Shown: piece by piece, positions 37,825 through 58,121 of the stretch
Layout of the letters: the number at the start of each line of letters is the position of its first letter
Position numbering within the stretch: the first letter of the stretch is position 1
Source: Clostridiales bacterium
Lineage (GTDB): Bacteria > Bacillota > Clostridia > Lachnospirales > Lachnospiraceae
DNA length: 64,000 bases
Direction: 5' to 3'
Assembly: GCA_015655075.1 (NCBI GenBank)
Contig: JAATFT010000084.1
Span: forward strand, 1 to 64,000
Program-made: the position numbers and the translations under genes
Notes under the pieces: generated by a model
The model's database searches: none
Seen by the model: only the letters and a program-made list of their open reading frames with translations
What the model was told of the DNA's origin: nothing

Positions 37825-37873
37825 TTAATGTAGAAAAAAGTATATTTAACCATTTTAAGAGGTGAGGTTGATA

Positions 37874-38494
37874 ATGAATATTGCAATATGTGATGATGAT
37901 GTGGCTATCACCCGCTCGATCAGAGCTTTTTTGTCACGATTTCAAGATAAATTTCCCGATTTGTACATAGAAGAATTTAACTCAGGGGAAAATTTACTTG
38001 CAGCATTTAAGGAAGGTATCATATTTGAGATCATATTTTTAGATATTCAAATGAGCAAAGTAAATGGAATTCAGAGTGCTATTAAAATTAAAGAAAAATA
38101 TAAAAATGTGTTAATCATTTTCTTAACCGGCTATTCTAATTATGTTAAGGAGGCTTTTCGCCTACGTGCCTTTCAATATCTTTTAAAGCCGGTTAAGAAG
38201 GAAGAGGTTATAAAAGAGTTCGAACGTGCATTAGAACAATACAAGATTAATCATATAAAATATGAATTAAAAATGAATGATCGTATTACCTATTTGGAAA
38301 TTCACGACATACAATACATGGAAGTGAGAAATCATATAATTATTATTAATACAGTAAGTGAAAAATATATGATAAGAGGAAAACTGCAGAATGAAGAAGT
38401 TAAATTGAAAAGCTGTGATTTTATCCGTTGTCATCAGGGCTTTCTTGTAAATATGATGTGGATTAAATCAATTGGTGAAGGACAGATTATTTAA
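37874..38494 (+). CDS. LytTR response regulator (AgrA-like), C-terminally truncated
   Basis: A 206-residue regulator. The receiver domain has acidic residues DDD near the start and phospho-acceptor Asp in IFLDIQM (about residue 59); Lys in LLKPVK (about 106). A LytTR DNA-binding domain follows from about 135. An in-frame TAA ends it at 38494, but the same frame continues for 29 codons of typical LytTR text (GTSIPVSRRMKKTVLDEF) to a TGA at 38584 that overlaps the kinase start. The stop therefore looks like a recent TTA-to-TAA change. The ATG at 37874 has AGGTGAGG upstream. Confidence 0.85.
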   Translation: MNIAICDDDVAITRSIRAFLSRFQDKFPDLYIEEFNSGENLLAAFKEGIIFEIIFLDIQMSKVNGIQSAIKIKEKYKNVLIIFLTGYSNYVKEAFRLRAFQYLLKPVKKEEVIKEFERALEQYKINHIKYELKMNDRITYLEIHDIQYMEVRNHIIIINTVSEKYMIRGKLQNEEVKLKSCDFIRCHQGFLVNMMWIKSIGEGQII

Positions 38495-38584
38495 AAAAAC
38501 GGAACCAGCATTCCTGTTAGTAGACGGATGAAAAAAACAGTTTTAGATGAATTTGCAGTTTATCTTACTGGAAAATGCATATGA
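38495..38584 (+). pseudogene. Detached C-terminal end of the LytTR regulator
   Basis: These 29 codons plus stop continue the regulator in frame after its TAA. They encode the last strand and helix of the LytTR fold. The TGA overlaps the kinase ATG as ATGA, which is how two-component genes are often joined, supporting this as the original gene end. Confidence 0.7.
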
Positions 38585-39909
38585 ACAGTATAAAATTAAT
38601 TATTGATTTATTCGGTGCTTTTTTTGAAATTTATATGGTTTTTCAGTTTTTTTCTCTTTTATTTGAAAGAAAGAGCAATAATAAAAGACAGTATTTCTTT
38701 TTATTTCCCTTCTCATTATTTCTATTGATCAGTTCAAATTTAGTACCGGAAGAACTGAATAGTATCCCATTTATTTCTTTTTTTGCAGTATTTATTCTAT
38801 CCTATATTTTTAGGGCACAATATATTATTAGAATTATTATATCTTTAATTATTTTTTCTATGTTTATGGTATCAGAAATTCTAATAGGAATGATATTAAT
38901 TTCTACTAATGATTTAACAATTTCTATTACTAGAGAAAATTTATTTTTCTATTTATGCGCAGTTATCCTATCCAAATTCATTGTTTACCTCATTTTTCTG
39001 ATTGTAAGAGAAAAGGTTGCTAAGAACAAGATGCAGAAGCCTAAATATATTTTTGCTATTTTAATTATGCCTGTCTGTTCCACATTTATAATATACTTGC
39101 TTTTTTTGTTAACTTATGGGATTCAGAACAGACATATTGTAATTCTTGTTGAAATTGCAGTTATTTTATTAGTTATGGCTAATATGGCCATAATCTATAT
39201 CATTAATAAGCTGTTGGATTTTGAAAATAGCAAAAAGAGGATCCAATTTATGGAGAAGCAATTGGAACTACAAAGCAAACATTATAAAGAAATGGAACAA
39301 TCACAAAGTGAAAGAAATGAGTTCTATCATAATATGAAAAATTATCTACTTGCTGTAGGTGGTTATTTAAATAACAAGGAATATGATAGAGCAAAAGAAA
39401 AAATATATCAGGCGAATGAAAATTTATTTATTGATAAACATAGAATACATACTGGAAATATCTGCCTAGACGCTTTATTAGTTGCTAAAATGGTTGGAAT
39501 GAAACAGGAAGGTATTGAATTTGAACATAAAATTAATATGCCGGACAAGTTAACAATAGATTATATTGATTTTTGTATTATTATTGGAAATGCAATGGAT
39601 AATGCAATAGAGGCCTGCTGTAAAATAAAGGAGGGTATAAGAAAAATATCATTAATCTGTACACAGGTAGATGATTATATTACAATAATCATAATAAATA
39701 CTATATCTGCGGAGATGTTTAGACCTTTGGATAGATGTCAGGATGGAACAATTAAAAGCATTTTAACCACAAAACAGGATAACAGGTTTCATGGGTATGG
39801 AGTACAAAGTATAAAAAATATTGCTGAAAAAAATAAGGGTAATATTCTAATAAAATTTGACAAGAATATATTTCAAATTAAAATTATTTTGTATAATGAG
39901 ATTAATTGA
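38581..39909 (+). CDS. AgrC-like sensor histidine kinase
   Basis: A 442-residue membrane kinase of the GHKL class. Six or so hydrophobic segments fill residues 1-210, as in AgrC peptide receptors. The phospho-accepting His lies in FYHNMKNYL, the N-box is GNAMDNAIEAC, and the G-box is HGYGVQSIKNIA. It should sense the cyclic peptide made from the AgrD encoded at 40751. Start: ATG 38581, joined to the regulator by an ATGA overlap; an in-frame ATG at 38575 is possible. AT-rich, like the rest of the agr locus. Confidence 0.9.
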   Translation: MNSIKLIIDLFGAFFEIYMVFQFFSLLFERKSNNKRQYFFLFPFSLFLLISSNLVPEELNSIPFISFFAVFILSYIFRAQYIIRIIISLIIFSMFMVSEILIGMILISTNDLTISITRENLFFYLCAVILSKFIVYLIFLIVREKVAKNKMQKPKYIFAILIMPVCSTFIIYLLFLLTYGIQNRHIVILVEIAVILLVMANMAIIYIINKLLDFENSKKRIQFMEKQLELQSKHYKEMEQSQSERNEFYHNMKNYLLAVGGYLNNKEYDRAKEKIYQANENLFIDKHRIHTGNICLDALLVAKMVGMKQEGIEFEHKINMPDKLTIDYIDFCIIIGNAMDNAIEACCKIKEGIRKISLICTQVDDYITIIIINTISAEMFRPLDRCQDGTIKSILTTKQDNRFHGYGVQSIKNIAEKNKGNILIKFDKNIFQIKIILYNEIN

Positions 39910-39924
39910 GGTTGTCTGACCAAA

Positions 39925-39951
39925 TACGTTTTAGAACCTACCATTTACGTT
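39925..39951 (+). promoter_or_regulatory. Candidate AgrA/LytTR binding repeats before agrB
   Basis: TACGTT occurs at 39925-39930 and 39946-39951, exactly 21 bases apart, two helical turns, as expected for LytTR regulators. A possible TTGTAA (39959) with TAAACT further on would be the agrBD promoter just downstream. Confidence 0.4.
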
Positions 39952-40010
39952 GAAAATATTGTAAAAGAAATAAAAAGGTGTAAACTTTAAATCAGAAAGG
40001 AGAAGTATTA

Positions 40011-40604
40011 ATGCTCCTCATGGCTAAAAAGTTAACATCTTTTTTTATTCATAATCAAGTTATTAAAGAGGAAGAAAAGGATATTTATGAATATTGCTTT
40101 CAAATCTTTATTTCAAGTATAGCTAATTTTGGTACAATTTTTTTAATTTCAATTATAACAGGAAGATTTTTAGAAACTGTATATTATATAATAGGTTTTT
40201 TCATTTTAAGATCGCAGACAGGTGGTTACCATACCAAGACACATTTTAGATGTTATATTTTAACTGTAATCATGTACCTCATTTTTAGATTAATAATAAA
40301 TTGGATTTTTTTATCTTGGAGTTACTGGATGACTTTAATTTTATTTATTGTATCTTTTGTTATTATGTGGCTATTTGCTCCTATATCTGATAGAAATAAG
40401 CCTTTTGATGCTGATGAGTTTAAAAAATACAAAAGAAATAGCAGGATTATTATTATTTTATTTACAATTATTTACACTTTATGTTCTTTTAAATTATATA
40501 AAGATTATGGAATATATATACTATCATTATGTTTGGGAAATGTATTTGCTGCGGTTTCAATATTGATGGCTTTATTTTCAAAATATAAAAATAAAGAATT
40601 TTAA
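40011..40604 (+). CDS. agrB: AgrB-like peptide-processing membrane protease
   Basis: A 197-residue membrane protein of the AgrB family. The catalytic His74 and Cys81 lie in GGYHTKTHFRC, with the same seven-residue spacing as in staphylococcal AgrB. About five or six membrane helices follow. It cuts the AgrD precursor and forms the thiolactone. Start: ATG 40011 with AAGGAGAAG upstream; an ATG at 40020 (MAKK) is an alternative. The agrD gene lies 146 bases downstream. Confidence 0.92.
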   Translation: MLLMAKKLTSFFIHNQVIKEEEKDIYEYCFQIFISSIANFGTIFLISIITGRFLETVYYIIGFFILRSQTGGYHTKTHFRCYILTVIMYLIFRLIINWIFLSWSYWMTLILFIVSFVIMWLFAPISDRNKPFDADEFKKYKRNSRIIIILFTIIYTLCSFKLYKDYGIYILSLCLGNVFAAVSILMALFSKYKNKEF

Positions 40605-40750
40605 AAAACATGCTAGCAAAAGATTAATATATTTATTAATCTAAACTTACTTAAGGAGAAAGCAAAAATGAATTAGAGTTATCATTTCCACTAAAAATTT
40701 TTAAAGGAAACTATTTTATATAGTATGTACAAAAGAAAGGAGGCATAAGA

Positions 40751-40906
40751 ATGTTAAGGTTAAAGCCTATTTTATTAAGATTAGGTAAACCTATAATAGC
40801 AATAGTACTATGTATGGGCGTATCGACGGTTAATTCAGCTTGTTTTGGATGGTATTATCAGCCAAAAATTCCGGAAGCTATGAATAAATTTAAGAGAAAA
40901 AGATAG
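40751..40906 (+). CDS. agrD: AgrD-like cyclic autoinducer peptide precursor
   Basis: A 51-residue precursor. An amphipathic, hydrophobic leader (residues 1-28) is followed by SACFGWYY and the charged recognition tail QPKIPEAMNKFKRKR, the QPK-x-P pattern common in clostridial AgrD. Cys31 would form a thiolactone with Tyr35, giving a CFGWY ring; the ring end (Tyr35 or Tyr36) is a guess. A strong AAAGGAGG site precedes the ATG. Position directly after agrB makes the call firm. Confidence 0.9.
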   Translation: MLRLKPILLRLGKPIIAIVLCMGVSTVNSACFGWYYQPKIPEAMNKFKRKR

Positions 40907-40961
40907 TGACAAAATATACAGAGTGAAAATGTAAATGCTTGTAATATGAAAGGATGGTAAT

Positions 40962-41960
40962 ATGTATAATAAATTTGTAAAGCTTTTTTCAAGTTTTCTT
41001 TTAATTTTTAGTATTATAATATGTAGTAATGTTACCTATATTAAAGCTGCAACAGAAAATAATGATGATTTTATTAAAGCTATTGAAGATACTTTAGAAG
41101 TTAATATTGTAAAAGATAGTATTATATCATTGCATGATAAAAACAATGACATAGTTGCCTACTTTTATCAACTTACACCAATCGGCTATATAATTATTGA
41201 CAGTAAAACTAATGGTGTAATTGAATATTGTGTATCTGAAAATAGTGAATACATAACTGATCAAAACAAAGTTTATTTTTACAGCGGTCCATTAAGTTAC
41301 TATGAAGCATCTTCATTATCAGATAAGCAAATTTATGATTGTAAAAGACATACGAAAATTTCTAAAAATAAAATTAACTTTGAAAGTAAAACATTTTTTA
41401 AATATGATACCTCAAATGATGAAAATTTGAATTCAAGTGAATCAAGTAATTCAGTATCTGCTACATCATCTTCATTACCATATTTGACGAAACCATATGA
41501 TACAAATAATGGTAATATTTGTGGAGCAACTGCTTCGGCAATACTGTTAGAATATTACTATTCACATATTGATTCTTCTGTTGTATTACCTGCCAATATA
41601 ACCAGTGATGGTGAAATATTAACTAATTTACTTGTTTCATATGTACCAGGTGGTGCAAATGTTATTGTGTTGGATTCAGGACTTGATTTATATTTAGATA
41701 GTGTGCGTAGCTCGAAAACGGCTTCCCATGTAACAATAGCTAATATTATAACTTCACCTACAACGAGAATGGAATTGTGTATAGCAGCTTCTAAGCCTTG
41801 TATTATTGGTTTAACTGAAGAGCCTACATATGGTGAACATTGGGCAGTAGCTACAGGTTATCAAAAAAATGTAGAATTTGTAAATATTAATGATGGTTGG
41901 GGCCATAGAGGCATATTAGTATCTTATGTGTATGTCGATTCATGCGTATATTTAAAATAG
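40962..41960 (+). CDS. Secreted papain-like cysteine protease (C10/C39-like)
   Basis: A 332-residue exported protein. A signal peptide (residues 1-29, cleaved near IKAA) is followed by a pro-domain of about 140 residues with the streptopain-prodomain-like GYIIIDSKT strand. The catalytic domain has Cys187 in ICGATASA, His293 in GEHWAVATGY and Asn310 in NINDGWG, the Cys-His-Asn order of streptopain-like proteases. It lies 55 bases after agrD and could be in the same transcript, which suggests quorum control of an extracellular protease. Start: ATG after GAAAGGATGG. Confidence 0.8.
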   Translation: MYNKFVKLFSSFLLIFSIIICSNVTYIKAATENNDDFIKAIEDTLEVNIVKDSIISLHDKNNDIVAYFYQLTPIGYIIIDSKTNGVIEYCVSENSEYITDQNKVYFYSGPLSYYEASSLSDKQIYDCKRHTKISKNKINFESKTFFKYDTSNDENLNSSESSNSVSATSSSLPYLTKPYDTNNGNICGATASAILLEYYYSHIDSSVVLPANITSDGEILTNLLVSYVPGGANVIVLDSGLDLYLDSVRSSKTASHVTIANIITSPTTRMELCIAASKPCIIGLTEEPTYGEHWAVATGYQKNVEFVNINDGWGHRGILVSYVYVDSCVYLK

Positions 41961-42062
41961 TGTGTATAGCTGTTTGATGTTAATTAATATTAAAGCTATA
42001 TAAAAGTAGTATTAGTATTAGACAGAAATTTAAATATTCAAAAAAAATAATAATAATGAACA

Positions 42063-42106
42063 ACTGTTCTCTATGACTTATAAATGTTATAGAGAGCAGT
42101 CTTTTT
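42063..42106 (+). terminator. Terminator of the agr/protease unit
   Basis: ACTGTTCTCTAT (42063-42074) pairs with ATAGAGAGCAGT (42089-42100), with one mismatch, followed by CTTTTT. The rest of the 41961-42319 gap is AT-rich and holds only this and the promoter at 42224. Confidence 0.8.
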
Positions 42107-42223
42107 AATATTAATTTAATAAATATTTTCTTATATTCTTTAATAATATTAGCATAATATATATGCCTATTTTTATAAAAAGAGAGAATATGAAGTTATT
42201 TTGTGTGCATATTTTGTAAATAT

Positions 42224-42252
42224 TTGCTATTTAAAATATAATGTAGTATAAT
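42224..42252 (+). promoter_or_regulatory. Promoter of the 134-residue membrane-anchored protein
   Basis: TTGCTA (42224-42229), 17-base spacer, TATAAT (42247-42252), 67 bases before the ATG. Confidence 0.55.
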
Positions 42253-42319
42253 ATAAATCATATCAATTAATTAAAATAAATGCCAAGATATACTTATAAA
42301 TAAACCAGGAGGTAATAGT

Positions 42320-42724
42320 ATGAATGTGAAAAATAAAATATTAGTTAAAATCTTAATAGGTATTGTAGTAATAGTTGCTATTGTGATTTTATTCCAGTTT
42401 TTTAATATGAAAAAGTTTAGAATAAATACAATCGATATAGTAAAAGTTACTATTCAGTATAAAACTCAAGAAATAACAATCAAAGAATCAGAAAAGCTAG
42501 ATGAATTTTGTGATAATTTTTCTAATAAAGAATTTGTTCTAAATAAGAGTGCTTTAGGACATAAAGGCTGGATGTATCGGGTTAAATTTTATACTACTGA
42601 TAAGCTTATTTATGATTTTACTATCCAGGATGAAAATACAATAATATACAATGGTTGGTATTATAAAACCGAAGAAGATATTATTGATTTAAGCTATATG
42701 GAGGATATTTTTAAAGGCCTGTAA
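42320..42724 (+). CDS. Membrane-anchored small protein, unknown function
   Basis: A 134-residue protein with one N-terminal membrane anchor (residues 9-28) and an extracellular domain of about 100 residues. It has an alternating strand pattern and aromatic motifs (GHKGWMYRVKFY, NGWYYKTEED). I do not recognise the family. Start: ATG after CAGGAGG. It has its own promoter and shares the high AT content of the agr locus, so it may belong to the same acquired segment. Confidence 0.65.
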   Translation: MNVKNKILVKILIGIVVIVAIVILFQFFNMKKFRINTIDIVKVTIQYKTQEITIKESEKLDEFCDNFSNKEFVLNKSALGHKGWMYRVKFYTTDKLIYDFTIQDENTIIYNGWYYKTEEDIIDLSYMEDIFKGL

Positions 42725-47500: not shown

Positions 47501-47669
47501 GAATTAGTGAGGGTTGAGTTTCAAGAATATTTGTTGTAAAATGAAAGTGAAAAACTACAAGTAACAAATGTAACCGTTTTGTGTAAAATAGTGTTAAATT
47601 TTCTATGTGCATATTAGGCTTTTGGTATCTTAGTTATAAGATTTTATTAAAAAGATGGGAGATAATCCG

Positions 47670-49361
47670 TTGAAAAAGCAGACATTATTTAGTTATAGTA
47701 ATAGAGTAAAATTAATGATTAAACAATTATTAAACTCAATTAGTATAAAGATCATACTCCTATTTAGTATTATGACATTTTTAATTTCGTCTATAGCGAC
47801 TTATAGCGCTTCTTATTCAATGCATCTGCTTCATGCGCAGGTTATCGAAACCGGTGAATATAATATTGAATTGGCTGTAAATCAGATTGACAGTGAATTG
47901 GTAAATATAAATAATTATTTGTATTCTGTGATGACAGATAATGCAGATATTGATGTTTTAAGCGATACGGCGATGAAGGACAGTAACAAGTACCATTTGT
48001 CGCGGACAATCCTCTGGAATTCCATGGGTAAGCAAATTCTGAGTTTTAACTATGCCGAAGCTCTTTTTTTGTTTGTTCCCGAAAATAATGAATTATTGCT
48101 GAGAATACGGTCTCTGACCTATGCCAGAAGCCAGGAGCTTAAACAATTTATTCTAAATATCCAAGAAACACAAAGAGAAAATAACTGGACAGTTATACAG
48201 ATCGGAGAAGAGAAATATCTGGTACGGACAGTTAGTTATAACCAGAGTATGCTGGGAGCATTTATCCGGGTTTCGGATCTCTTGCGCAAATTAAAGATTA
48301 TTGAAAATTATGAAAGCAGGATTGTTCAAATCCACAGCCTGAACGGGAGTATAGAAGATAAAAATCATATTATAATGGAGTGTGCGTCGAAAAAGGGAGA
48401 GTATAAAATTATTGGAGGAATCTCCAAGGATGAGATTTACAGGAAGCTGCCGATAATCCAAAAGGCGGCATTTGTAATTGCAATCGGGAGCTTTTTTTGC
48501 ATTCCGGGGTGGATTATTCTATTAAATTTTTGGTTGATTAAACCCTTGTCAATAATAAAGAAAGCGATGGAACGGTTTAAGGAGGGAGTTATCGATTATA
48601 AAATTCCTCAATTCCGTACTTCCTATGAATTTTCACAGATAAATGAAACCTTTAATAAAATGACCGCTGCAATTAAAGATCTGACTATAGAGAATTACGA
48701 AAAAAAGCTTGAAAAACAGCGTGCAGATTTTCAAATACTCCAGTTAAAAATTAACCCGCATTTTCTGCTTAATTCCTTTAATATTATGTATAGTCTGGCT
48801 CAGATTAAGGATTTTAAGGCAGTGCAGATGTTATGTTTTAATTTATCCAATTATTTCAGGTATATATTCCAGAAGGACTGCGAATATGTGGCATTAAAAA
48901 GGGAATTGGATTTCGTTCGGGATTACCTTAATATCTCTTCCATGCGTTTTCCAGACTGCTTTATTGCGGATTTTGATGTGGACGAATCGTTGATGGATTA
49001 TCCGGTGCTTCCTTTGCTGGTAGAGAATTTTGTGGAAAATTGTATTAAACATGCAATTATACCGGGTGATTGCATAAATATCCGCATTATTGCCAAGGAC
49101 CGAGGGGAGTACGTGGAAATTAAGGTAATTGATAATGGCAGAGGTATGGAACAGACCAAGGCGGATCTTATTCTTGCAGGGGAGTTTGTTGATGAAAAGG
49201 GGATTCATACAGGAATTCTTAATTGTAAAAAGCGGCTGAAATCTTTTTATGGGGAGGATGCAAAGCTTTTGTTGAAAAGTATTTTAAATCAGGGCACCGA
49301 AGTTATCATACAGATATTGAAAAAGGGGGCGGCTAAGGATGAATCTGCTGATTGTCGATGA
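47670..49361 (+). CDS. Sensor histidine kinase, YesM family
   Basis: A 563-residue kinase with an N-terminal membrane helix (about 20-45), an extracellular sensing domain of about 200 residues, a second helix near 280, a HAMP segment and a His-kinase domain. The phospho-His lies in LKINPHFLLNSFN; the ATP-site N-box is VENFVENCIKHA, and NGRGM marks the G1 box. The start is probably TTG at 47670 behind GGGAGAT; an ATG at 47655 lacks a ribosome site. It overlaps its regulator gene by 23 bases and lies before a sugar importer it likely controls. Confidence 0.9.
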   Translation: MKKQTLFSYSNRVKLMIKQLLNSISIKIILLFSIMTFLISSIATYSASYSMHLLHAQVIETGEYNIELAVNQIDSELVNINNYLYSVMTDNADIDVLSDTAMKDSNKYHLSRTILWNSMGKQILSFNYAEALFLFVPENNELLLRIRSLTYARSQELKQFILNIQETQRENNWTVIQIGEEKYLVRTVSYNQSMLGAFIRVSDLLRKLKIIENYESRIVQIHSLNGSIEDKNHIIMECASKKGEYKIIGGISKDEIYRKLPIIQKAAFVIAIGSFFCIPGWIILLNFWLIKPLSIIKKAMERFKEGVIDYKIPQFRTSYEFSQINETFNKMTAAIKDLTIENYEKKLEKQRADFQILQLKINPHFLLNSFNIMYSLAQIKDFKAVQMLCFNLSNYFRYIFQKDCEYVALKRELDFVRDYLNISSMRFPDCFIADFDVDESLMDYPVLPLLVENFVENCIKHAIIPGDCINIRIIAKDRGEYVEIKVIDNGRGMEQTKADLILAGEFVDEKGIHTGILNCKKRLKSFYGEDAKLLLKSILNQGTEVIIQILKKGAAKDESADCR

Positions 49362-50124
49362 TGAGATGATTGCAATTAAGGCTATTTTGGACGGCGTAAA
49401 ATGGGAACATATGGATATCGATAAAATATACACGGCTAATAGTGCCGTACAGGCAAGGAAAATTTTGACAAAAGATAAGATAGATATCCTTTTGTGTGAT
49501 ATTGAAATGACTCCGGAGGATGGAATTAGTCTGGTACGTTGGATTCGTGAATATTACAATAGTATAGAATGTATCTTTATTACCTGCCATGCCGATTTTA
49601 ATTTTGCAAGAGAAGCCATAAAATTAAACAGTTTTGATTATCTGCTCAAACCAGTATCTTATGATAAACTGGAAGAAATCCTGCATAAAGTTATTGATAA
49701 GATTCATGATAAAATGAATCAGAGCAAAGTAATGCAATATGGAGAAATTTATCTTAAAGAATTTACCGGCAATGCAGAATGCAAGGAGAGCGTTAAAAAA
49801 ACGGTTGCAGAAATTGTTGATGAGGTATCCAAATATATTAGATTCCACTTGTCAGAAACCTTAACAGTGGAAGAAATAGCCGGGCAGATATATTTGAATC
49901 CGGATTATCTGACACGTATATTCAGAAAGGAAACAGGGGAACCTCTGATTAAGTTTATTATTCGCGAGAGGATGTATATGGCGGCCAAGCTGCTGACTGA
50001 TACCCAGTTGTCGGTAAACAGTATTGCATTAGAAGTAGGTTATTCCGATTATTCTCATTTTACAAAAATGTTTAAACAGATATATGGAATAACGCCCACC
50101 GTTTATAGGCAGAAGCATAAGTAA
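49339..50124 (+). CDS. AraC-type response regulator, YesN family
   Basis: A 261-residue regulator. The receiver domain carries DDE at residues 7-9 and the phospho-acceptor Asp in LLCDIEM (about 56), with Lys in LLKPVS. The C-terminal AraC domain has two helix-turn-helix units (LTVEEIAGQIYLNPDYLTRIF and the VNSIALEVGYSDYSHFTKMF region). It forms a two-component pair with the overlapping kinase and likely activates the ABC and C-deglycosidase genes downstream. Confidence 0.92.
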   Translation: MNLLIVDDEMIAIKAILDGVKWEHMDIDKIYTANSAVQARKILTKDKIDILLCDIEMTPEDGISLVRWIREYYNSIECIFITCHADFNFAREAIKLNSFDYLLKPVSYDKLEEILHKVIDKIHDKMNQSKVMQYGEIYLKEFTGNAECKESVKKTVAEIVDEVSKYIRFHLSETLTVEEIAGQIYLNPDYLTRIFRKETGEPLIKFIIRERMYMAAKLLTDTQLSVNSIALEVGYSDYSHFTKMFKQIYGITPTVYRQKHK

Positions 50125-50485: not shown

Positions 50486-52081
50486 ATGAAAAGATGTAAA
50501 AATATTTTTACAATGTTACTGTCTTTTGTTATGTCTTTCGCTATGATTTTAAGTCTTTCGGCCTGCGGCAAAAATGATGCGGGAACAACAAAAGAGAAAA
50601 CTACGGAGGATACAAAGCAGACTGATGTTGGGAAGGATACAGAGCAGGTGGCTGATGCGGAGGAACCGGTAAATTTAACCGTGGCTTTTGCTATTTTTGG
50701 TGAAACACCCATGGATTTGAACAAGATTAATGAAAAAATTAATGAATATTTAAAGGAAAAAGTTAACGCCACTATTACTCTTTTGCCAATTAGTGGAAGC
50801 TCCTATTCCCAACAGATTGATTTAATGTTAACAAGCGGTGAGAAATTAGATTTATTGGTAGACGGCACCATTACGGCGTTGTTTAACTACACCTCCCATG
50901 CGTCCAAAGGCCAGCTATATCCCATGAAGGATCTGCTGGATGAATATGGGCAGGGGATTCAGAAAGCTATGGGGAAGTATCTGGATGCGGCGGTTGTCAA
51001 CGGAGAAATTTATGGCGTTCCGACAAATAGAGATCTGGCGGCGCGTGTCAGCCTGCTGGTTCGCAGTTCCCTCCTTGAAAAATATAAGATTGACCCGGCT
51101 TCTATTAAGACCTATGAAGATATGGAGGGATTGTTCCAGACAATTAAAGAAAAGGAACCTTCGGTAACTCCGTTAATGATTGCCGACAGTGCCTCGGGGA
51201 CGATTTTTGACAGCCTTGGGTTAAGCTTTGACACTGCCGGAGACCAGCTAAGCGATATGATAGGCGTGTTAATGGACAATCAGGTTCTTAAGGTTGCGGA
51301 TTATTATGAAACGGAGGAATGTAAAGCAGCTTGCAAACGTATTCGTGACTGGTATGAAAAAGGCTATGTTCTTCAGGACGCGGCGACAAATCAATCTTCT
51401 CCTACGGACTTGATAAAGGCGGGCACCGTATTTGGATATATTTCAAACTCCAAACCGGGTATGGAAGCGCAAATAGCTTCCACCGTTGGGGAAGATATAA
51501 CGGAAATACCATTAACGGAAGCTTTATCCGATACCCAGAAAGTAACAGGATTCATGTGGGCGATTGCCGGGGAGAGTAAATATTCGGAAAAAGCTATGGA
51601 GGTTTTAAATTTAATGTATACCGATCCGGTGTTTATTAATCTGCTGGATCATGGTATTGAAGGCGTGCATTACAAGGTGGTGGATAAAGAAAATAATATA
51701 ATTGATTTTGCAGACGGCGTTACGCCGGATACTACCGGCTATGATATGAATATTGATTTTCAATTTGGCAATCAGTTGCTGTCCTACATATGGGAAGGGG
51801 ATTCTCCTACTTTGTGGAAGGATATGGAACAGTTCAATACGTCTGCCAAGGTTTCCAAGGCTATGGGCTTTCAGTTTGATGCAACTAAGGTAAAGACGGA
51901 GTACGCATCGGTTAATGCGGTTATTAACCAGTACAAAACCGCCCTGGGACAAGGGACGGTTGATCCGACACAGTATTTGCCGGAATTTATACAAAAATTA
52001 AAAGCGGCTGGCATTGACGCAATTGTTACTGAAAAGCAGGCCCAGCTGGACGCATTTGTCAAGGCTGGCGGAAATGATTAG
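50486..52081 (+). CDS. Oligosaccharide/glycoside-binding lipoprotein
   Basis: A 531-residue extracellular binding protein (SBP family 1, LplA-like). The lipobox ends LSAC, Cys27, followed by a Thr/Glu-rich linker. The length, and the later DUF3502-like C-terminal region, fit receptors that work with LplB/LplC-type permeases. It is the receptor for the two permeases encoded next. No ATPase gene is present, as is usual in these clusters, where a shared MsmX-type ATPase serves. Start: ATG after GAAAGGAGAAGG. Ligand may be a plant glycoside, judging from downstream genes. Confidence 0.9.
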   Translation: MKRCKNIFTMLLSFVMSFAMILSLSACGKNDAGTTKEKTTEDTKQTDVGKDTEQVADAEEPVNLTVAFAIFGETPMDLNKINEKINEYLKEKVNATITLLPISGSSYSQQIDLMLTSGEKLDLLVDGTITALFNYTSHASKGQLYPMKDLLDEYGQGIQKAMGKYLDAAVVNGEIYGVPTNRDLAARVSLLVRSSLLEKYKIDPASIKTYEDMEGLFQTIKEKEPSVTPLMIADSASGTIFDSLGLSFDTAGDQLSDMIGVLMDNQVLKVADYYETEECKAACKRIRDWYEKGYVLQDAATNQSSPTDLIKAGTVFGYISNSKPGMEAQIASTVGEDITEIPLTEALSDTQKVTGFMWAIAGESKYSEKAMEVLNLMYTDPVFINLLDHGIEGVHYKVVDKENNIIDFADGVTPDTTGYDMNIDFQFGNQLLSYIWEGDSPTLWKDMEQFNTSAKVSKAMGFQFDATKVKTEYASVNAVINQYKTALGQGTVDPTQYLPEFIQKLKAAGIDAIVTEKQAQLDAFVKAGGND

Positions 52082-52159
52082 TTAAAAAAAGGGCGTTGCT
52101 TTACGCACATTGCACAATTATCATTTGTAAAGAATGCAGGGACAGAGAGGTGGTATATT

Positions 52160-53107
52160 ATGGCGGACGGTAAGGCAGTCGCCCTTAAAAGAAAAAAAAG
52201 AGTTAAATTAAAACGCTATTTTATGTTATATCTGATGATGGTACCAGGTATGGTTTACTTGATTATTAACAATTACATTCCTATGTTTGGCCTGTATTTG
52301 GCATTTAAGAATATAGATTTCCGAAAAGGTCTTTGGGGAAGCGATTGGATTGGGCTTAAAAATTTTGAATTTTTGTTTAAATCCACGGATGCATTTATTA
52401 TTACACGCAACACAATTTTATATAATCTGGCTTTTATTGTGATTAATACTTTTCTGGCGGTAATGGTGGCAATTCTGCTCAATGAAATTGTCAAGGTAAG
52501 GCGCGTGAAGATATATCAAAGCCTCCTGCTCTTACCCTACCTGATTTCCATGGTGGTTGTTGCATATCTGGTTTTGGCCTTTCTGGATAACAAGGGATTT
52601 ATCAACAGTGCTGTTATTACCGGATTATTAAAAAGAAAGTCCGGTATTTCCTGGTATTCCGAGGCGGGTTATTGGTCTTTAATCATTATATTTGTAAATG
52701 CATGGAAGAATATAGGGTATCTATGCGTAATCTATTATGCGTCAATAATTGGTATCAGCGTCGAATATTATGAAGCCGCCAAGCTGGACGGTGCCTCCAT
52801 GATACAGCAAATACGCTTTGTTACCATACCTTTGATTAGACCGACAATCATTACTATGGTTCTTTTGAGCATAGGCCGTATGTTCTATTCGGACTTCGGA
52901 CTATTTTATCAGGTTCCTATGGATTCAGGAGCGTTGTATACGGCAACGAATGTTATTGATACATATGTCTACCGGGCATTAATTAAACTATCGGATATTG
53001 GTATGTCCTCAGCGGCAGGTGTATATCAGTCGGTTGTCGGTTTTGTAGTTGTTCTTTGTTCGAATCTGGCAGTCCGCAGGATAGACAAAGAGAGCGCATT
53101 ATTTTAG
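52160..53107 (+). CDS. ABC transporter permease (LplB type)
   Basis: A 315-residue membrane protein with six helices. The coupling loop reads EYYEAAKLDGASMIQQIRFVTIP (the EAA motif), and the N-terminus MYLIINNYIPMFGLYLAFKN-like text is typical of the LplB/YtcP group. Start: ATG after AGAGGTGG. It pairs with the permease encoded 14 bases downstream. Confidence 0.93.
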   Translation: MADGKAVALKRKKRVKLKRYFMLYLMMVPGMVYLIINNYIPMFGLYLAFKNIDFRKGLWGSDWIGLKNFEFLFKSTDAFIITRNTILYNLAFIVINTFLAVMVAILLNEIVKVRRVKIYQSLLLLPYLISMVVVAYLVLAFLDNKGFINSAVITGLLKRKSGISWYSEAGYWSLIIIFVNAWKNIGYLCVIYYASIIGISVEYYEAAKLDGASMIQQIRFVTIPLIRPTIITMVLLSIGRMFYSDFGLFYQVPMDSGALYTATNVIDTYVYRALIKLSDIGMSSAAGVYQSVVGFVVVLCSNLAVRRIDKESALF

Positions 53108-53121
53108 AGGGGGTGTTATAC

Positions 53122-53997
53122 ATGAAAAAAAGAGCTGTTGTACCCAATATTATTTTAAGTTTATTATGCATTTTGTGTGTTGCCCCGTTTATTCTATTGG
53201 TTATAGCGTCGCTGACGGATGAAAATGAACTAATTGTTCATGGATACTCATTTTTACCAAAGAAATGGAGTATAACCGCCTATGTATATCTGATACAGCA
53301 GGCTGCTGTGATTGTAAGGGCCTATGGTATCACGATTCTTGTGACAATAGCGGGAACATGTGTCGGCGTAATGCTTGTCTCCATGCTGGCATATCCCCTT
53401 TCAAGAAAGGATTTGCCATATGGAAAAGTACTGGCGTTTATTGTTTTTTTTACAATGCTATTTAACGGAGGGCTAGTTCCCACCTATTTAATGTATGTGC
53501 GGTATTTCGAATTAAAAAATACTCTTTGGGGGCTGCTGATTCCCGGGCTTTTGGTAAATAGCTTTTATGTTATGATAATGCGCGCCTATTTTGTTTCCAG
53601 TATACCGGAAGCCGTTATTGAATCCGCATATATGGACGGCGCCGGGGAGTTTATGATATATATCAAGATTGTCATGCCTTTGGCTGTGCCTATTGTGGCG
53701 ACAATCGGCTTGTTTGTAGGTATTGCATATTGGAACGACTGGTATAACGGCTTGATTTATATTACGGATCCCAAGCTGTTTAGTATACAAAATGTTTTAA
53801 ACAGGATTATCTCCGACGCCCAGTTTCTCTCCAGCAGCAATCTGGGAAGCACGGTAAATTCCGCGGCGGTTTCCCTGCCTACGACGGCCGTCCGTATGGC
53901 GATTGCCGTCATAACAATAATGCCTATACTGATAGCATATCCGTTTTTTCAAAAGTATTTTGTCAGGGGCATTTCCATTGGCGCTGTTAAAGGCTGA
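53122..53997 (+). CDS. ABC transporter permease (LplC type)
   Basis: A 291-residue six-helix membrane protein with the EAA loop ESAYMDGAGEFMIYIKIVMP. It forms the channel with the LplB-type partner. I chose the ATG at 53122 because GAGGGGGTG precedes it; the longer frame from 53056 would overlap the upstream gene. It is followed after 44 bases by the fused C-deglycosidase-like gene, linking uptake to that activity. Confidence 0.93.
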   Translation: MKKRAVVPNIILSLLCILCVAPFILLVIASLTDENELIVHGYSFLPKKWSITAYVYLIQQAAVIVRAYGITILVTIAGTCVGVMLVSMLAYPLSRKDLPYGKVLAFIVFFTMLFNGGLVPTYLMYVRYFELKNTLWGLLIPGLLVNSFYVMIMRAYFVSSIPEAVIESAYMDGAGEFMIYIKIVMPLAVPIVATIGLFVGIAYWNDWYNGLIYITDPKLFSIQNVLNRIISDAQFLSSSNLGSTVNSAAVSLPTTAVRMAIAVITIMPILIAYPFFQKYFVRGISIGAVKG

Positions 53998-54041
53998 AAA
54001 AAATATAAATAAAATCACATCAATAATTGGAGGTATGAAAA

Positions 54042-55382
54042 ATGTATGAAAAACAAATGTTAGTAGAACGTTACTTTCGTAATACTGCTTCAGACGGTGT
54101 TGTCACCGGTTTCCAGGTGGGAGTACGAGTAACCCATTATCATGGTATACCCATTGCCATTGTAAAAGGTTTCAGGATTACAGTGGACGGCGTCGAATAT
54201 GGAAGGGATGCCATACGTTTTATATTAAGGAACCAGGTGTTTAACCTGGACGAAATGAAAAATCATATGGATGTCTATTGGGGATTCGGCGAGGTGGCCA
54301 TAATAACCGTTGCCTGCATGGGAGGACTGTCAAAGGGAAACCATGAAATTATTTTTTCAGAGATTTTAGACGCCTACGGCCGCGGGGATACGGAACACCG
54401 TTTTATATTTAATTTTAACCTGGGCAGCATGATTCGCCGGGGAGTAACTTTATACAGCTATCAGCAGGAGTATTATACAGGCGATATGACGCTGGAGGAT
54501 ATGGTTGCCGCCGTGGCTGATTTGGATACCGACGGAGTGGAAATTCTTGCGGAAGCCTGTGTTAAGAATTATCCCAATCCCAGTGATTATTTTATCGGAC
54601 GGTGGTTTGAAATCCTTGAAAAATACCGCTGTAGGCCGATTGTTTTTGACGCTTCTTTTGGATATATACCCGGTAATGAAGCCGCCGCAAAAAAATTAAA
54701 GCAGGATATTGATGTCGCGCATCGGATGGGCTTTTCGGTTATCCGTGCACAAAACAACCTGGAAACACTAAAAATGTGTTTGGGTTATGCGGATGAAAAA
54801 GGAATTACTTTAGCACAGGAAATCCATTCGCCCAATACCCTGGACGGTCCGTTGGTGGAAGGACTCATGGAATATGTCTATAAGAACAATGTTAAGAATC
54901 TTGGCCTTATTCCGGATATGGGAATTTTCTGTCAAAGGCCGGTGCGTTTATGCTATGAAAAACATTTGAGGGCGGGAGCAACCGGGGAACTGGTGGAATA
55001 TGTATGCAAAGCCTATATGAATCACGCCGATATGGATGAAACCGTTGAATATGTACGTAATCATGGCGGAAATGAACTTGACCTGTTTTGGGCAAAGGAA
55101 GCTTTTGATTATGTCTGGTGCGATCCGTCGCTGCTCAAAAAATATGTCGCTTATATTCCGAATATTCACGGAAAATTTTATGAAATGACCAATGCGGGCG
55201 AAGAATATAGTATCCCCTATAAGGAAGTAATCGACGTTTTAAAGGAAAGCAACTGGTCCGGATATATTTGCAGCGAATTTGAAGGCCAGCGGCATTACCA
55301 CGATTTGCGCTATTTTGATATCAGCAGCGTTGACGAAGTAAAGCGGCATCATAAGATGCTGCAGAAATATATTAAAGCGTAA
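54042..55382 (+). CDS. Fused C-glycoside-deglycosidase-like protein (beta domain + TIM-barrel alpha domain)
   Basis: A 446-residue protein with two parts. Residues 1-125 resemble the separate small protein encoded at 56344 (compare GFQVGVRVTHYHG with GYEFYVQYPSYRG, and ITVDGV with IQIDGQ). Residues 145-446 resemble the barrel protein encoded at 56783; both have a YPNPSD motif. Likely metal ligands: Glu260 (QEIHSP), Asp292 (IPDMG), His376 (IHGKF) and Glu412/414 (SEFEG). In gut bacteria DgpB and DgpC form a C-deglycosidase as separate subunits; here both seem joined. Start: ATG after GGAGG. Substrate unknown. Confidence 0.75.
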   Translation: MYEKQMLVERYFRNTASDGVVTGFQVGVRVTHYHGIPIAIVKGFRITVDGVEYGRDAIRFILRNQVFNLDEMKNHMDVYWGFGEVAIITVACMGGLSKGNHEIIFSEILDAYGRGDTEHRFIFNFNLGSMIRRGVTLYSYQQEYYTGDMTLEDMVAAVADLDTDGVEILAEACVKNYPNPSDYFIGRWFEILEKYRCRPIVFDASFGYIPGNEAAAKKLKQDIDVAHRMGFSVIRAQNNLETLKMCLGYADEKGITLAQEIHSPNTLDGPLVEGLMEYVYKNNVKNLGLIPDMGIFCQRPVRLCYEKHLRAGATGELVEYVCKAYMNHADMDETVEYVRNHGGNELDLFWAKEAFDYVWCDPSLLKKYVAYIPNIHGKFYEMTNAGEEYSIPYKEVIDVLKESNWSGYICSEFEGQRHYHDLRYFDISSVDEVKRHHKMLQKYIKA

Positions 55383-55610
55383 TGTTGTCATAGACGATTT
55401 GAAGGATTGAATCCTAACGCCTTATCCATATTTCGCAGGATTACTGAATGAACCGTATTTTCAGGAAAGAGGAACATACCTATGAAAAAAGCATGAAAAT
55501 TAAGGCGGCAATCCATACAAAAAAGAATAGCTTAGCCCATTCTTGTGGTGGGCGATATCATGGATATTATTATCTATAGTAAATATATATAAATGATTGG
55601 AGGAACAGGA

Positions 55611-56327
55611 ATGGAAAAATTAAAAGCTGCGGTAATAGGCTGCGGAGGAATTGCAAATCAAAAACATTTTCCGGCATTGAAATTGAATAGTGATTTATGT
55701 GAAATGGTACCTGGGGGGTATTTCCGGATAAATCGCAGCAAGGCGGAGGCCCTTTAATCGATATCGGCACCCATGCTCTGGATATTACGCTATGGATGCT
55801 GAACAATTATAAGGTTGCCTCTGTAACCGGCTCCGTATTTGAAAAGCTGGGACATCTTCAGGAAGCCATCAGGGGCAATATTCGGACCATGGAAGCCGGA
55901 AACCTATGAAGTGGAAGATTCTGCCTTTGGATATATTAAAATGGAGGATGGCGCGGCTATATTCCTGGAAGCTTCCTGGGCTTTAAATGTATTGGAATCC
56001 AAGGAAGCGGCGACTACTCTGTGCGGAACCAAGGCGGGCGCCCAGATAAATGCCGGAATGAGTTATCCTGCCAGTGAATTAATTTATGTTAAGACGAATC
56101 ATGGGATGCTGACGGAAGAGAAGAATTCGCCGGCGGGTAATATTGCTTATTTTGATGGAAAAGAGGGAAAACCGGAAGTATTGGAAGCAAAACAATGGCT
56201 AGAGGCGGTTATTCATGATAAGGAACCGTTGGTAAAGCCGGAACAGGCGTTTATAGTGACGAAAATCCTGGATGCAATTTATCGGTCGGCTGCGGAAGGA
56301 AAAGAAATTACCTTTAAAAATATGTGA
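55611..56327 (+). pseudogene. Broken Gfo/Idh/MocA-type oxidoreductase
   Basis: The start is sound (GGAGG, ATG, then AAVIGCGGIANQKHFPAL with the NAD-binding glycines). After about 33 residues the text jumps to the C-terminal domain (GGGPLIDIGTHALDITLW), so roughly 120 codons have been lost. A second frameshift of about two bases near 55880 (GNI to FGPWKPE) follows. The remaining frame runs to 56327. In C-deglycosidase clusters this enzyme (DgpA-type) oxidises the sugar at C3 before cleavage. The gap 55383-55610 holds no intact gene. Confidence 0.85.
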
Positions 56328-56343
56328 ACTGGGAGGCACTTGT

Positions 56344-56760
56344 ATGGCATTTGAACTATTTAACAGATTATTGGTCTGCGATAAAGAGATTACGAATATG
56401 AAAGCTGAAGACGCCGCGGTAGGTTATGAATTTTATGTTCAATACCCATCTTATAGGGGAACGTATTTAAGCTGTATTGAAAAATTAGAAATACAAATAG
56501 ACGGACAGATTATCGATACTTCCCGGATCGGCTTTTATGTTAATGGGAAAGAGGTGCTGGTGGAGGAATTTCCCGATTTGTTCCGGGAATATTGGTTTAT
56601 ACTTGATTATGCCTCTGTCCGGATATATGGAGATGGATTAAAAGCCGGATCTAAACATGGGGTGCACGTTTTATTGCGTCATCGGATTCCCTATACAGGA
56701 TATTTTGGAAACTATATGATTGAAGACGCGGTTTGTGAAAAAGAGCTTACGGTAAAATAA
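56344..56760 (+). CDS. C-glycoside deglycosidase beta-subunit-like protein (DUF6379-like)
   Basis: A 138-residue beta-rich protein, matching what I remember of the DUF6379/DgpB family. Conserved blocks: GYEFYVQYPSYRGTYLS, IEIQIDGQII-like strand, FREYWFILDYASV and a C-terminal RHRIPYTGYFG. In known systems this subunit packs on the barrel subunit and completes the active site. I chose the ATG at 56344 behind GGGAGG. The barrel gene follows after 22 bases, as expected for a B-C pair. Confidence 0.75.
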   Translation: MAFELFNRLLVCDKEITNMKAEDAAVGYEFYVQYPSYRGTYLSCIEKLEIQIDGQIIDTSRIGFYVNGKEVLVEEFPDLFREYWFILDYASVRIYGDGLKAGSKHGVHVLLRHRIPYTGYFGNYMIEDAVCEKELTVK

Positions 56761-56782
56761 CGGCAAAGAGGAGGACAAGGAT

Positions 56783-57751
56783 ATGAGTGATAAAAAAATT
56801 AAATTGGGTATTACTCTGTTTAGCTTAACGCCTTACTATGTTACCAAGGAATGGGACCTTGAACGCTGTCTAAAGGAAGTGCACGAGATGGGATATCAGG
56901 GAATTGAGCTGGTGGCGGCTCAGATGGTGCCGGATTATCCGAATCCTTCGGATCAATGGCTGGAAAATTTTAAGGCGCTGCTTAAAAAATATGAGCTAAA
57001 CTTAATTACCTGGAGTGCCTATATTGATATGGGAATCCGGACTGACAGGGATTTAACAGAAAAAGAAATTATACAATATACAAGAAATGATATGATTTAT
57101 GCAAAGAAAGCGGGGGCCCGGATGGTCCGTACCCAACATGGGATTACTCCGGAAGTTTATCGGAAAATGCTTCCATTATGTAAGGTATTGGACATGAAAC
57201 TGGTAATTGAAATGCATTCCCCTCATCATCCTCAGGTGCCAGTATGGAAAGAATATTTAAAAATAATGGCGGACCCTGAAACAGAAGATTATTTCGGAGT
57301 AGTTCCGGATTTTAGCATTTTTCAGCATACGCCCCATAAATTAGCAATCGATGCCTTCCTTAAGGGGGGATGCCGTAAAGAAGTCCTGGACACCATTATT
57401 GCAATGCATGATGCAGGTTTGGGGGAAGAGGAGATGATATCAGGAGGCGATTATACCGATTATGAAAAAGAGGTGATAGCCGATATAAAACATAGATTCA
57501 GTGCCCCTGCAAAGGTGGAGGAGCTGGCAAAACTACTTCCGTGCACACCGTATATTCATGGAAAATTCCATTATATTACAAAAGATTGTAAAGATCCTAC
57601 CATTCCCTATGAAAGAGCTATAGAAATAATAAAAAAGTCCGATTTTCATGGATATATTGCATGTGAATATGAGGGACACCGGTTTGATATTGATGCCAAG
57701 GAACAATTATCTCGCTTTGTATCTATGATAAATCGATTGTCGGAAGAATGA
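56783..57751 (+). CDS. C-glycoside deglycosidase alpha-subunit-like TIM barrel
   Basis: A 322-residue protein of the sugar-phosphate isomerase/epimerase (AP endonuclease 2-like) superfamily. Likely divalent-metal ligands are Glu143 (IEMHSP), Asp176 (VPDFS), His259 (IHGKF) and Glu295/297 (CEYEG). In characterised systems (DgpC, CarC) this subunit breaks the C-C bond between a 3-keto sugar and an aromatic aglycone. Paired with the small gene just upstream. Start: ATG after GAGGAGGA. A different isomerase activity is possible, but the neighbour pair argues for C-deglycosylation. Confidence 0.78.
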   Translation: MSDKKIKLGITLFSLTPYYVTKEWDLERCLKEVHEMGYQGIELVAAQMVPDYPNPSDQWLENFKALLKKYELNLITWSAYIDMGIRTDRDLTEKEIIQYTRNDMIYAKKAGARMVRTQHGITPEVYRKMLPLCKVLDMKLVIEMHSPHHPQVPVWKEYLKIMADPETEDYFGVVPDFSIFQHTPHKLAIDAFLKGGCRKEVLDTIIAMHDAGLGEEEMISGGDYTDYEKEVIADIKHRFSAPAKVEELAKLLPCTPYIHGKFHYITKDCKDPTIPYERAIEIIKKSDFHGYIACEYEGHRFDIDAKEQLSRFVSMINRLSEE

Positions 57752-57858
57752 GTAAACGAAATAAATAATCTGTGGATTTGCCTGTCTGAATTGGAATAGG
57801 AGATAAGACGTAAGAAATTTAAATATAGTACTCTAAATATAGAAAGGCAGGGTTTATA

Positions 57859-58121
57859 ATGCTAAAGGTAGGTATTATCGGATATGGATTTATGGGACAC
57901 GTACATGCCAAAATGTTTGAAGGAATGAAAGAATTTAAGGTAGTAGCCATATGTGACTTATTATTGCGGAGGATATACCCAAGGTAAATATAGAATATGA
58001 AAACTATTTTAAAAATTACCTTAAGGCTATTCAAGGAGAAGAAGATTTCCTGGTTAAACCCTCGCGGGTCAGGAGGGTTTTGGCAGTTATGGAAGCCGTC
58101 GGAGAATCTGCAAAAAGCTAG
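57859..58121 (+). pseudogene. Second broken Gfo/Idh/MocA-type oxidoreductase
   Basis: The frame opens with VGIIGYGFMGHVHAKMF, a clear NAD-binding start, and stops after 42 codons. A second frame then shows only the C-terminal tail (about 50 codons, KPSRVRRVLAVMEAV near its end). Some 250 codons of the middle are missing. A typical family member has about 340-390 residues. With the 55611 pseudogene it means no intact oxidoreductase remains in the cluster. Confidence 0.8.

Follow-up and report, generated by a model that had tools for sequence, protein, structure and literature searches.

We analyzed a 64,000-nucleotide stretch (the window, G000:C60:1-64000) from the genome of a Clostridiales bacterium of the family Lachnospiraceae, whose assembly comprises 4.5 Mb in 98 contigs with 78.6% completeness. 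The window carries a locus that probably combines an importer with C-glycoside lyases fed by a 3-oxidation supplied in trans. A previous interpretation, made from the letters and their open reading frames (the sequence-only reading), had proposed a candidate locus for C-glycoside uptake and deglycosylation at positions 50486 to 58121. This C-glycoside deglycosidase (CGD) locus is real and was well read, with two corrections, i.e., the first step of the pathway would come in trans, and the fused enzyme has a solved precedent. The genes are given below, with identities to their counterparts on two other contigs, G727:C34 (from a Clostridiales metagenome-assembled genome, MAG) and G123:C69 (from Anaerobium).

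47655-49361, + strand: YesM-type sensor histidine kinase (Pfam His_kinase, HATPase_c and HAMP; 46% to G727:C34)
49339-50124, + strand: YesN-type response regulator, receiver plus AraC-type helix-turn-helix (Pfam; 54% to G727:C34)
50486-52081, + strand: extracellular substrate-binding protein (Pfam SBP_bac_1 3.5e-11 and DUF3502 6.4e-27; 64% to G727:C34, 31% to G123:C69)
52160-53107, + strand: ATP-binding cassette (ABC) permease 1 (BPD_transp_1 1.2e-11; 78% to G727:C34, 50% to G123:C69)
53056-53997, + strand: ABC permease 2 (BPD_transp_1 3e-11; 67% to G727:C34, 51% to G123:C69)
54042-55382, + strand: fused CGD, with CGDB domain, linker and TIM barrel (Pfam, PDB relatives, residues and fold; 43% to G727:C34)
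55611-56327, + strand: broken DgpA-type (Gfo/Idh/MocA) oxidoreductase (tblastn with the homologue on contig C58; longest open piece 55839-56327)
56344-56760, + strand: CGD beta subunit (CGDB), 138 amino acids (Pfam 4.4e-25; DgpB 7bvr_B 1.3e-16; 50% to G727:C34)
56783-57751, + strand: CGD alpha subunit, TIM barrel (AP_endonuc_2 3.8e-14; DgpC 7bvr_A 3.1e-49; 50% to G727:C34)
57859-58121, + strand: broken DgpA2-type (Gfo/Idh/MocA) oxidoreductase (tblastn with the C58 homologue)

The small protein at 56344, which starts at an ATG preceded by GGGAGG, is a member of CGDB (PF19906) with 88.1 bits against a Pfam cut-off of 27.6. The fused protein has the same domain at residues 2-108 (3.8e-29, 101.2 bits), followed, after a linker, by an alpha TIM barrel at about residues 129-446, in which AP_endonuc_2 matches residues 155-417 with 31.2 bits, barely above its cut-off of 31.1. 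The solved relatives of these proteins are CGDs. The beta and alpha types that the sequence-only reading had assigned to the three products at 54042, 56344 and 56783 are thus borne out, including the similarity of the small protein and of the fused N-terminal domain to the C-deglycosidase beta family. Both barrels group with CGD alpha subunits, which rank above isomerases. That they could be ordinary sugar isomerases or epimerases, the small protein being an accessory, is very improbable, even if they share the Pfam barrel family AP_endonuc_2 and the split barrel has a weak match to iolE (0.0026). We also checked seven alpha-subunit residues and the beta-subunit Tyr39, a catalytic set taken from published work. 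The metal ligands Glu, Asp, His and Glu are kept together with a Lys, both in the fused protein (E260, D292, H376 and E412, with K378) and in the split alpha subunit (E143, D176, H259 and E295, with K261), as are the His that acts as catalytic base and the Glu paired with it (H262 and E414 in the former, H145 and E297 in the latter). The equivalent of Tyr39, in the aglycone pocket, is kept in both beta domains (Y33 in the fused protein) and is a Tyr in 182 of the 183 sequences of the set; according to published work, it is important for C-C cleavage and of little weight for C-O cleavage. A structure model of the fused protein has both domains folded (mean predicted local distance difference test, pLDDT, 94.9; predicted template modeling score, pTM, 0.85), and a fold search with it retrieved CGDs, to which the barrel fits well, at 22-37% identity to the solved ones. 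Elsewhere in the alpha set, the catalytic base is replaced by Tyr in the named locus L146 (frame from 2607) and by Asp in L077 (from 3369), and the metal His by Gln in L123, L074 and the CGD of Microbacterium testaceum (8qrz).

The split pair is closest to DgpBC/PuCGD of strain PUE (7bvr, 7exz, 7xrf). Its alpha subunit falls in the DgpC clade (support of 0.993 in FastTree and 92 in IQ-TREE) and the tested catalytic residues are identical, although identity to DgpC is only 31%. The CGD of Deinococcus aerius (8qvc, 8umc) also consists of two separate subunits, unlike the fused enzyme, and belongs to another group of organisms. In strain PUE, an intact dgpA is found in the same operon (PMC11170127), whereas the window copy is broken. 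Before a C-glycoside can be cleaved, its glucose has to be oxidized at C3; DgpA, which does this, uses NAD and regenerates the cofactor on 3-oxo-glucose (PMC8563793, PMC11239390). The two Gfo/Idh/MocA remnants noticed in the sequence-only reading were identified by tblastn as broken genes of the DgpA (7xr9) and DgpA2 (9m37) types, and large parts of both proteins are missing. Relative to its intact homologue on C58, the first retains residues 4-34, 167-224 and 222-367, with about 132 codons deleted internally and one further frame shift, and its open piece has DgpA as best match (1.1e-53). In the second, only residues ca. 2-43 and a C-terminal stretch are left and the middle is gone. With both genes broken, the locus alone cannot run the two-step pathway, and the oxidation must come from elsewhere. 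The proposed match to the dgp/car clusters holds for the lyases but not for a complete cluster, as there is no intact C3-oxidoreductase in it.

The genome does have intact oxidoreductases of this kind on contig C58. One matches DgpA (9e-174) and the other DgpA2 (7.8e-132), whose structure bears a title naming a complex with the C-glucoside isoorientin. Next to them are two more alpha-beta pairs as well as a different type of importer (Peripla_BP_4, BPD_transp_2 and ABC_tran), and more distant homologues are located on contigs C68 and C74. The separation of dgpA from dgpBC has been described in Catenibacillus by Goris and Braune (PMC11170127), so a supply of 3-oxidation in trans has already been proposed within Lachnospiraceae. 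In C. scindens and C. decagia, which belong to the same family, dgpA and dgpBC are not adjacent and there are several lyases per genome; the difference is that the available text of that paper mentions neither a fused lyase nor a broken dgpA.

Loci with an equivalent organization were found in other genomes. On G727:C34 (locus L053), the order is fused gene, YesM, YesN, substrate-binding protein, two permeases, beta and alpha, and neither of the searches with the C58 oxidoreductases (E<=1e-20) gave a match on this contig, although several such genes are present on other contigs of G727. On G123:C69, the same kind of substrate-binding protein and two permeases lie directly 5' of a fused gene, which is the same as that of Anaerobium acetethylicum NZ_FMKA01000022.1 (Lachnospiraceae). 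The window is thus not alone in having an importer with lyases and no adjoining DgpA-type gene. Eighty of 94 relatives were kept as named loci, and in 18 of these the fetched flank includes a gene closely related to one or the other C58 oxidoreductase; among the remainder, many belong to groups in which unrelated FAD oxidases may do this work (PMC12724307). CGDB was absent from all 14 control genomes. Within the genus, 2 of 15 genomes have it, and within the family 34 of 397 sampled ones, our genome included in both counts; the copy number in the latter ranges from 1 to 11 (78 copies in total, E<=1e-8). Given this scarcity, its presence here is not due to chance.

Protein family, conserved residues and the nature of the two remnants would indicate C-glucosides as the substrate class. 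The C-linked glycosides put forward in the sequence-only reading are supported to this extent, with 3-keto-O-glucosides as a competing class. There is perhaps a small chance that the lyases chiefly cut 3-keto-O-glucosides, or other 3-keto sugars, rather than C-C bonds: PuCGE also cleaves 3-keto-phlorizin (PMC10628242), many O-glucosides are oxidized by DgpA (PMC11239390), and the fused protein shares little identity with the solved CGDs. However, AtOGE, a known eliminase of O-glucosides, needs no CGDB protein, and its aglycone site is less developed (PMC10628242), while both window enzymes keep the beta partner with its Tyr. Besides, several flavonoid 3-keto-O-glucosides decompose without any enzyme (PMC12724307, PMC11239390), and therefore a dedicated lyase would be less needed.

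Several observations speak against an active pathway fed in trans. Its activity, expression and substrate are what we infer from sequence. A third CGD locus, at C51 4870-5540 (L012), is reduced to fragments: pieces of an oxidoreductase (66% over 83 residues) and of an alpha gene (50% over 38 residues) are left, plus a CGDB match that misses the cut-off, so that the genome is losing such genes. The fused enzyme has evolved faster than its sisters. Those in L053 and L015 share 79% identity, but each has only 46-47% with the window protein, which is nearer than L053 to just 5 of 182 other sequences. At residue 214, it has Ala in place of a Glu conserved in 171 of 181 sequences, the only change among 18 highly conserved columns. 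This fast evolution could be decay. The whole-chain root mean square deviation (rmsd) between the model and the fused 8qrz is 16 Å, and the arrangement of the domains in the predicted structure may differ. As for the importer, systems of this type presumably use an MsmX/UgpC-type ATPase in trans, for which the OB_MalK profile gave no match in our genome, and the UgpC model gave full-length matches with a best score of 380.5 bits, below its cut-off of 432.

Some of these data, together with the two broken DgpA-type genes and a beta domain that ends 11 residues earlier than that of the Anaerobium sister, would also fit a decaying relic, in which the oxidoreductases were lost and the lyases remain under weak or no selection, with no useful role. 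We regard this as rather unlikely, though less so than the other alternatives. The three lyase reading frames and the eight tested catalytic residues are intact, the model is complete, and the intact DgpA and DgpA2 homologues persist, the genome thus pruning C-glycoside genes while retaining intact oxidoreductases. Moreover, the syntenic locus of G727 retains the sister lyases on a contig where the oxidoreductase searches found nothing. Either relaxed selection or a switch to another substrate could account for the divergence of the fused enzyme, and its intact active site favors the second without being decisive.

The fused layout is uncommon but not new in kind, because the fused CGD of M. 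testaceum, from another clade, has been solved (8qrz, 8un2). It is likewise a single chain with the beta domain first and the barrel second, and both domains match those of the window protein, from which it differs in identity (27%), in its place in the alpha tree, in the rmsd and in the Gln at the position of the metal His. Neither 8qrz/8un2 nor natural fusions of CGDs turned up as the subject of a paper in a literature search, which is no proof that such papers do not exist, and the word "fused" is absent from the main text of PMC8563793, PMC10628242, PMC11170127 and PMC12724307. Among 213 alpha-like reading frames, 20 also bear a beta domain, corresponding to 12 distinct fusions, since several are one gene fetched twice. 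The order beta-alpha is found in the window, L053, Anaerobium L054/L015, L131, L123 and a second Anaerobium gene (L154), and alpha-beta in L077, L131, L132, L138, L161 and L163. The family sample added two fusions, one per order, so that 5 of its 78 CGDB copies are fused. A FastTree was built from 185 alpha sequences (of the 213 frames, 198 had sufficient length and 181 of these were non-identical; four PDB pieces were added), and in it the fused CGDs, in both orders, occupy five places. An IQ-TREE of 54 of these sequences, picked to span the tree, requires five changes between fused and split; the table by groups gives one change per order, but there the orders are set only against each other, with the split rows omitted. 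With the same 54 sequences, the approximately unbiased (AU) test rejected a common origin for the beta-alpha fusions (p 1.3e-5 with all seven included, 5.5e-7 when the long branch L154 is left out, and 1.2e-4 for the window, L053, L015 and L131), p-values that are weakened by the groups having been named after viewing the FastTree. Change counts cannot separate gain from loss of fusion, but the opposite domain orders alone demand two events, and the split form is the usual one. The window protein forms a clade with L053 and Anaerobium (0.991 in FastTree; 88, not starred, in IQ-TREE), and on this tree evidence its fusion seems to have arisen separately from that of M. testaceum.

Two kinds of apparent fusion were discarded. 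Eight rows matched across one in-frame stop, as if by readthrough, and the seven that were inspected (all except G385:C21) are ordinary split genes, in which beta and alpha adjoin, a single stop (four TAG and three TAA) runs into a GGAGG-like ribosome site, seen at the DNA level in six, and the ATG of alpha follows a few codons later in the same frame. The long open frames around the barrels of L018, L023, L028 and L045 also turned out to be split. In the split pairs of L016, L020, L025 and L043, the TAG of beta leads straight into the ribosome site of alpha. Loss of a single stop would easily fuse in-frame split pairs like these. One possible advantage of fusion is to avoid mispairing, as the beta subunits of two CGDs are not exchangeable (PMC8563793). 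In the family sample, fused copies were 4 of 35 in genomes with at least four copies versus 1 of 43 elsewhere, which is not a significant difference (Fisher p 0.17).

A large CGDB complement was noticed in G728, the genome behind L131 (JAFVHP01, Lachnospiraceae bacterium isolate RGIG5178, a sheep abomasum MAG of 2.6 Mb; loci L158-L168). It has 33 CGDB matches, all above the cut-off, versus a maximum of 11 in the family sample, and 36 alpha match rows (ca. 32 genes after merging rows per frame). Four of the 33 copies are fused, in both orders. For comparison, the richest genome in the available text of the Catenibacillus paper has six dgpBC clusters (PMC11170127). By its gene content, G728 looks like a C-glycoside specialist; a literature search for this genome found nothing. 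G730, behind L077 (Oscillospiraceae RGIG9359, a yak abomasum MAG of 1.2 Mb), has 9 CGDB matches and at least two alpha-beta fusions.

Regarding the rest of the locus, Pfam confirmed a DUF3502-type importer, with its substrate-binding protein and two permeases, where the sequence-only reading had placed an Lpl-type one, and also the kinase and regulator of the YesMN pair, which sit just 5' of the 50486-58121 span. YesMN, Lpl and MsmX are names that we take to be appropriate for the regulators, importer and ATPase. The listed TTG start of permease 2 overlaps permease 1, and a later start may be the true one. The gap 5' of the substrate-binding protein gene contains an 18-base inverted repeat (50296-50313/50441-50458, 94% complementary, 127-base spacer) that could be a regulatory or mobile-element mark. 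After the second remnant comes a PmbA/TldD-type gene (Pfam) on the opposite strand. Farther upstream, an AT-rich stretch at 37862-42724 (GC content of 27% over 38001-42000) has genes for a LytTR regulator, a GHKL kinase and AgrB, an agr-type peptide-signaling set, and two further frames with no Pfam match at 1e-5.

Putting the pieces together, the YesMN pair would sense an aromatic C-glucoside or related plant glycoside, which the DUF3502 substrate-binding protein and the two permeases would import with an ATPase acting in trans. The glucose would first have to be oxidized at C3, a step that was presumably once carried out by the two DgpA-type genes of the locus, now broken, and the 3-keto-glycoside would most likely be made by the intact DgpA/DgpA2-like enzymes from contig C58. 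The locus itself would supply two lyases of different lineage, the one-chain beta-alpha enzyme and the two-subunit DgpB/DgpC-like one. Following the published chemistry, both would bind the 3-keto sugar at the metal held by Glu, Asp, His and Glu (plus Lys), the conserved His would remove the C2 proton, and the beta-domain Tyr would hold the oxyanion of the aglycone. Beta-elimination would then expel the aglycone, leaving 1,5-anhydro-D-erythro-hex-1-en-3-ulose for sugar metabolism.

Cleavage of the C-C bond of plant C-glucosides by gut bacteria determines which aglycones reach the host. Taken as a single locus, it adds a tidy but otherwise ordinary member to a known family. Yet it makes a shared oxidation, with one DgpA hub and several lyases, testable within one organism, and its one-chain enzyme, which seems to have arisen independently, would be convenient as a biocatalyst and for studying why alpha has to pair with beta. 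A broader and more speculative view, which we put forward tentatively, is that in bacteria with several C-glycoside lyases the two halves have fused repeatedly and in either order because pairs must not mix, and that single operons have lost their oxidoreductase and live as satellites of one oxidizing hub in the genome. If this were true, the locus described here would illustrate repeated fusion and a satellite operon together in one clean natural example.

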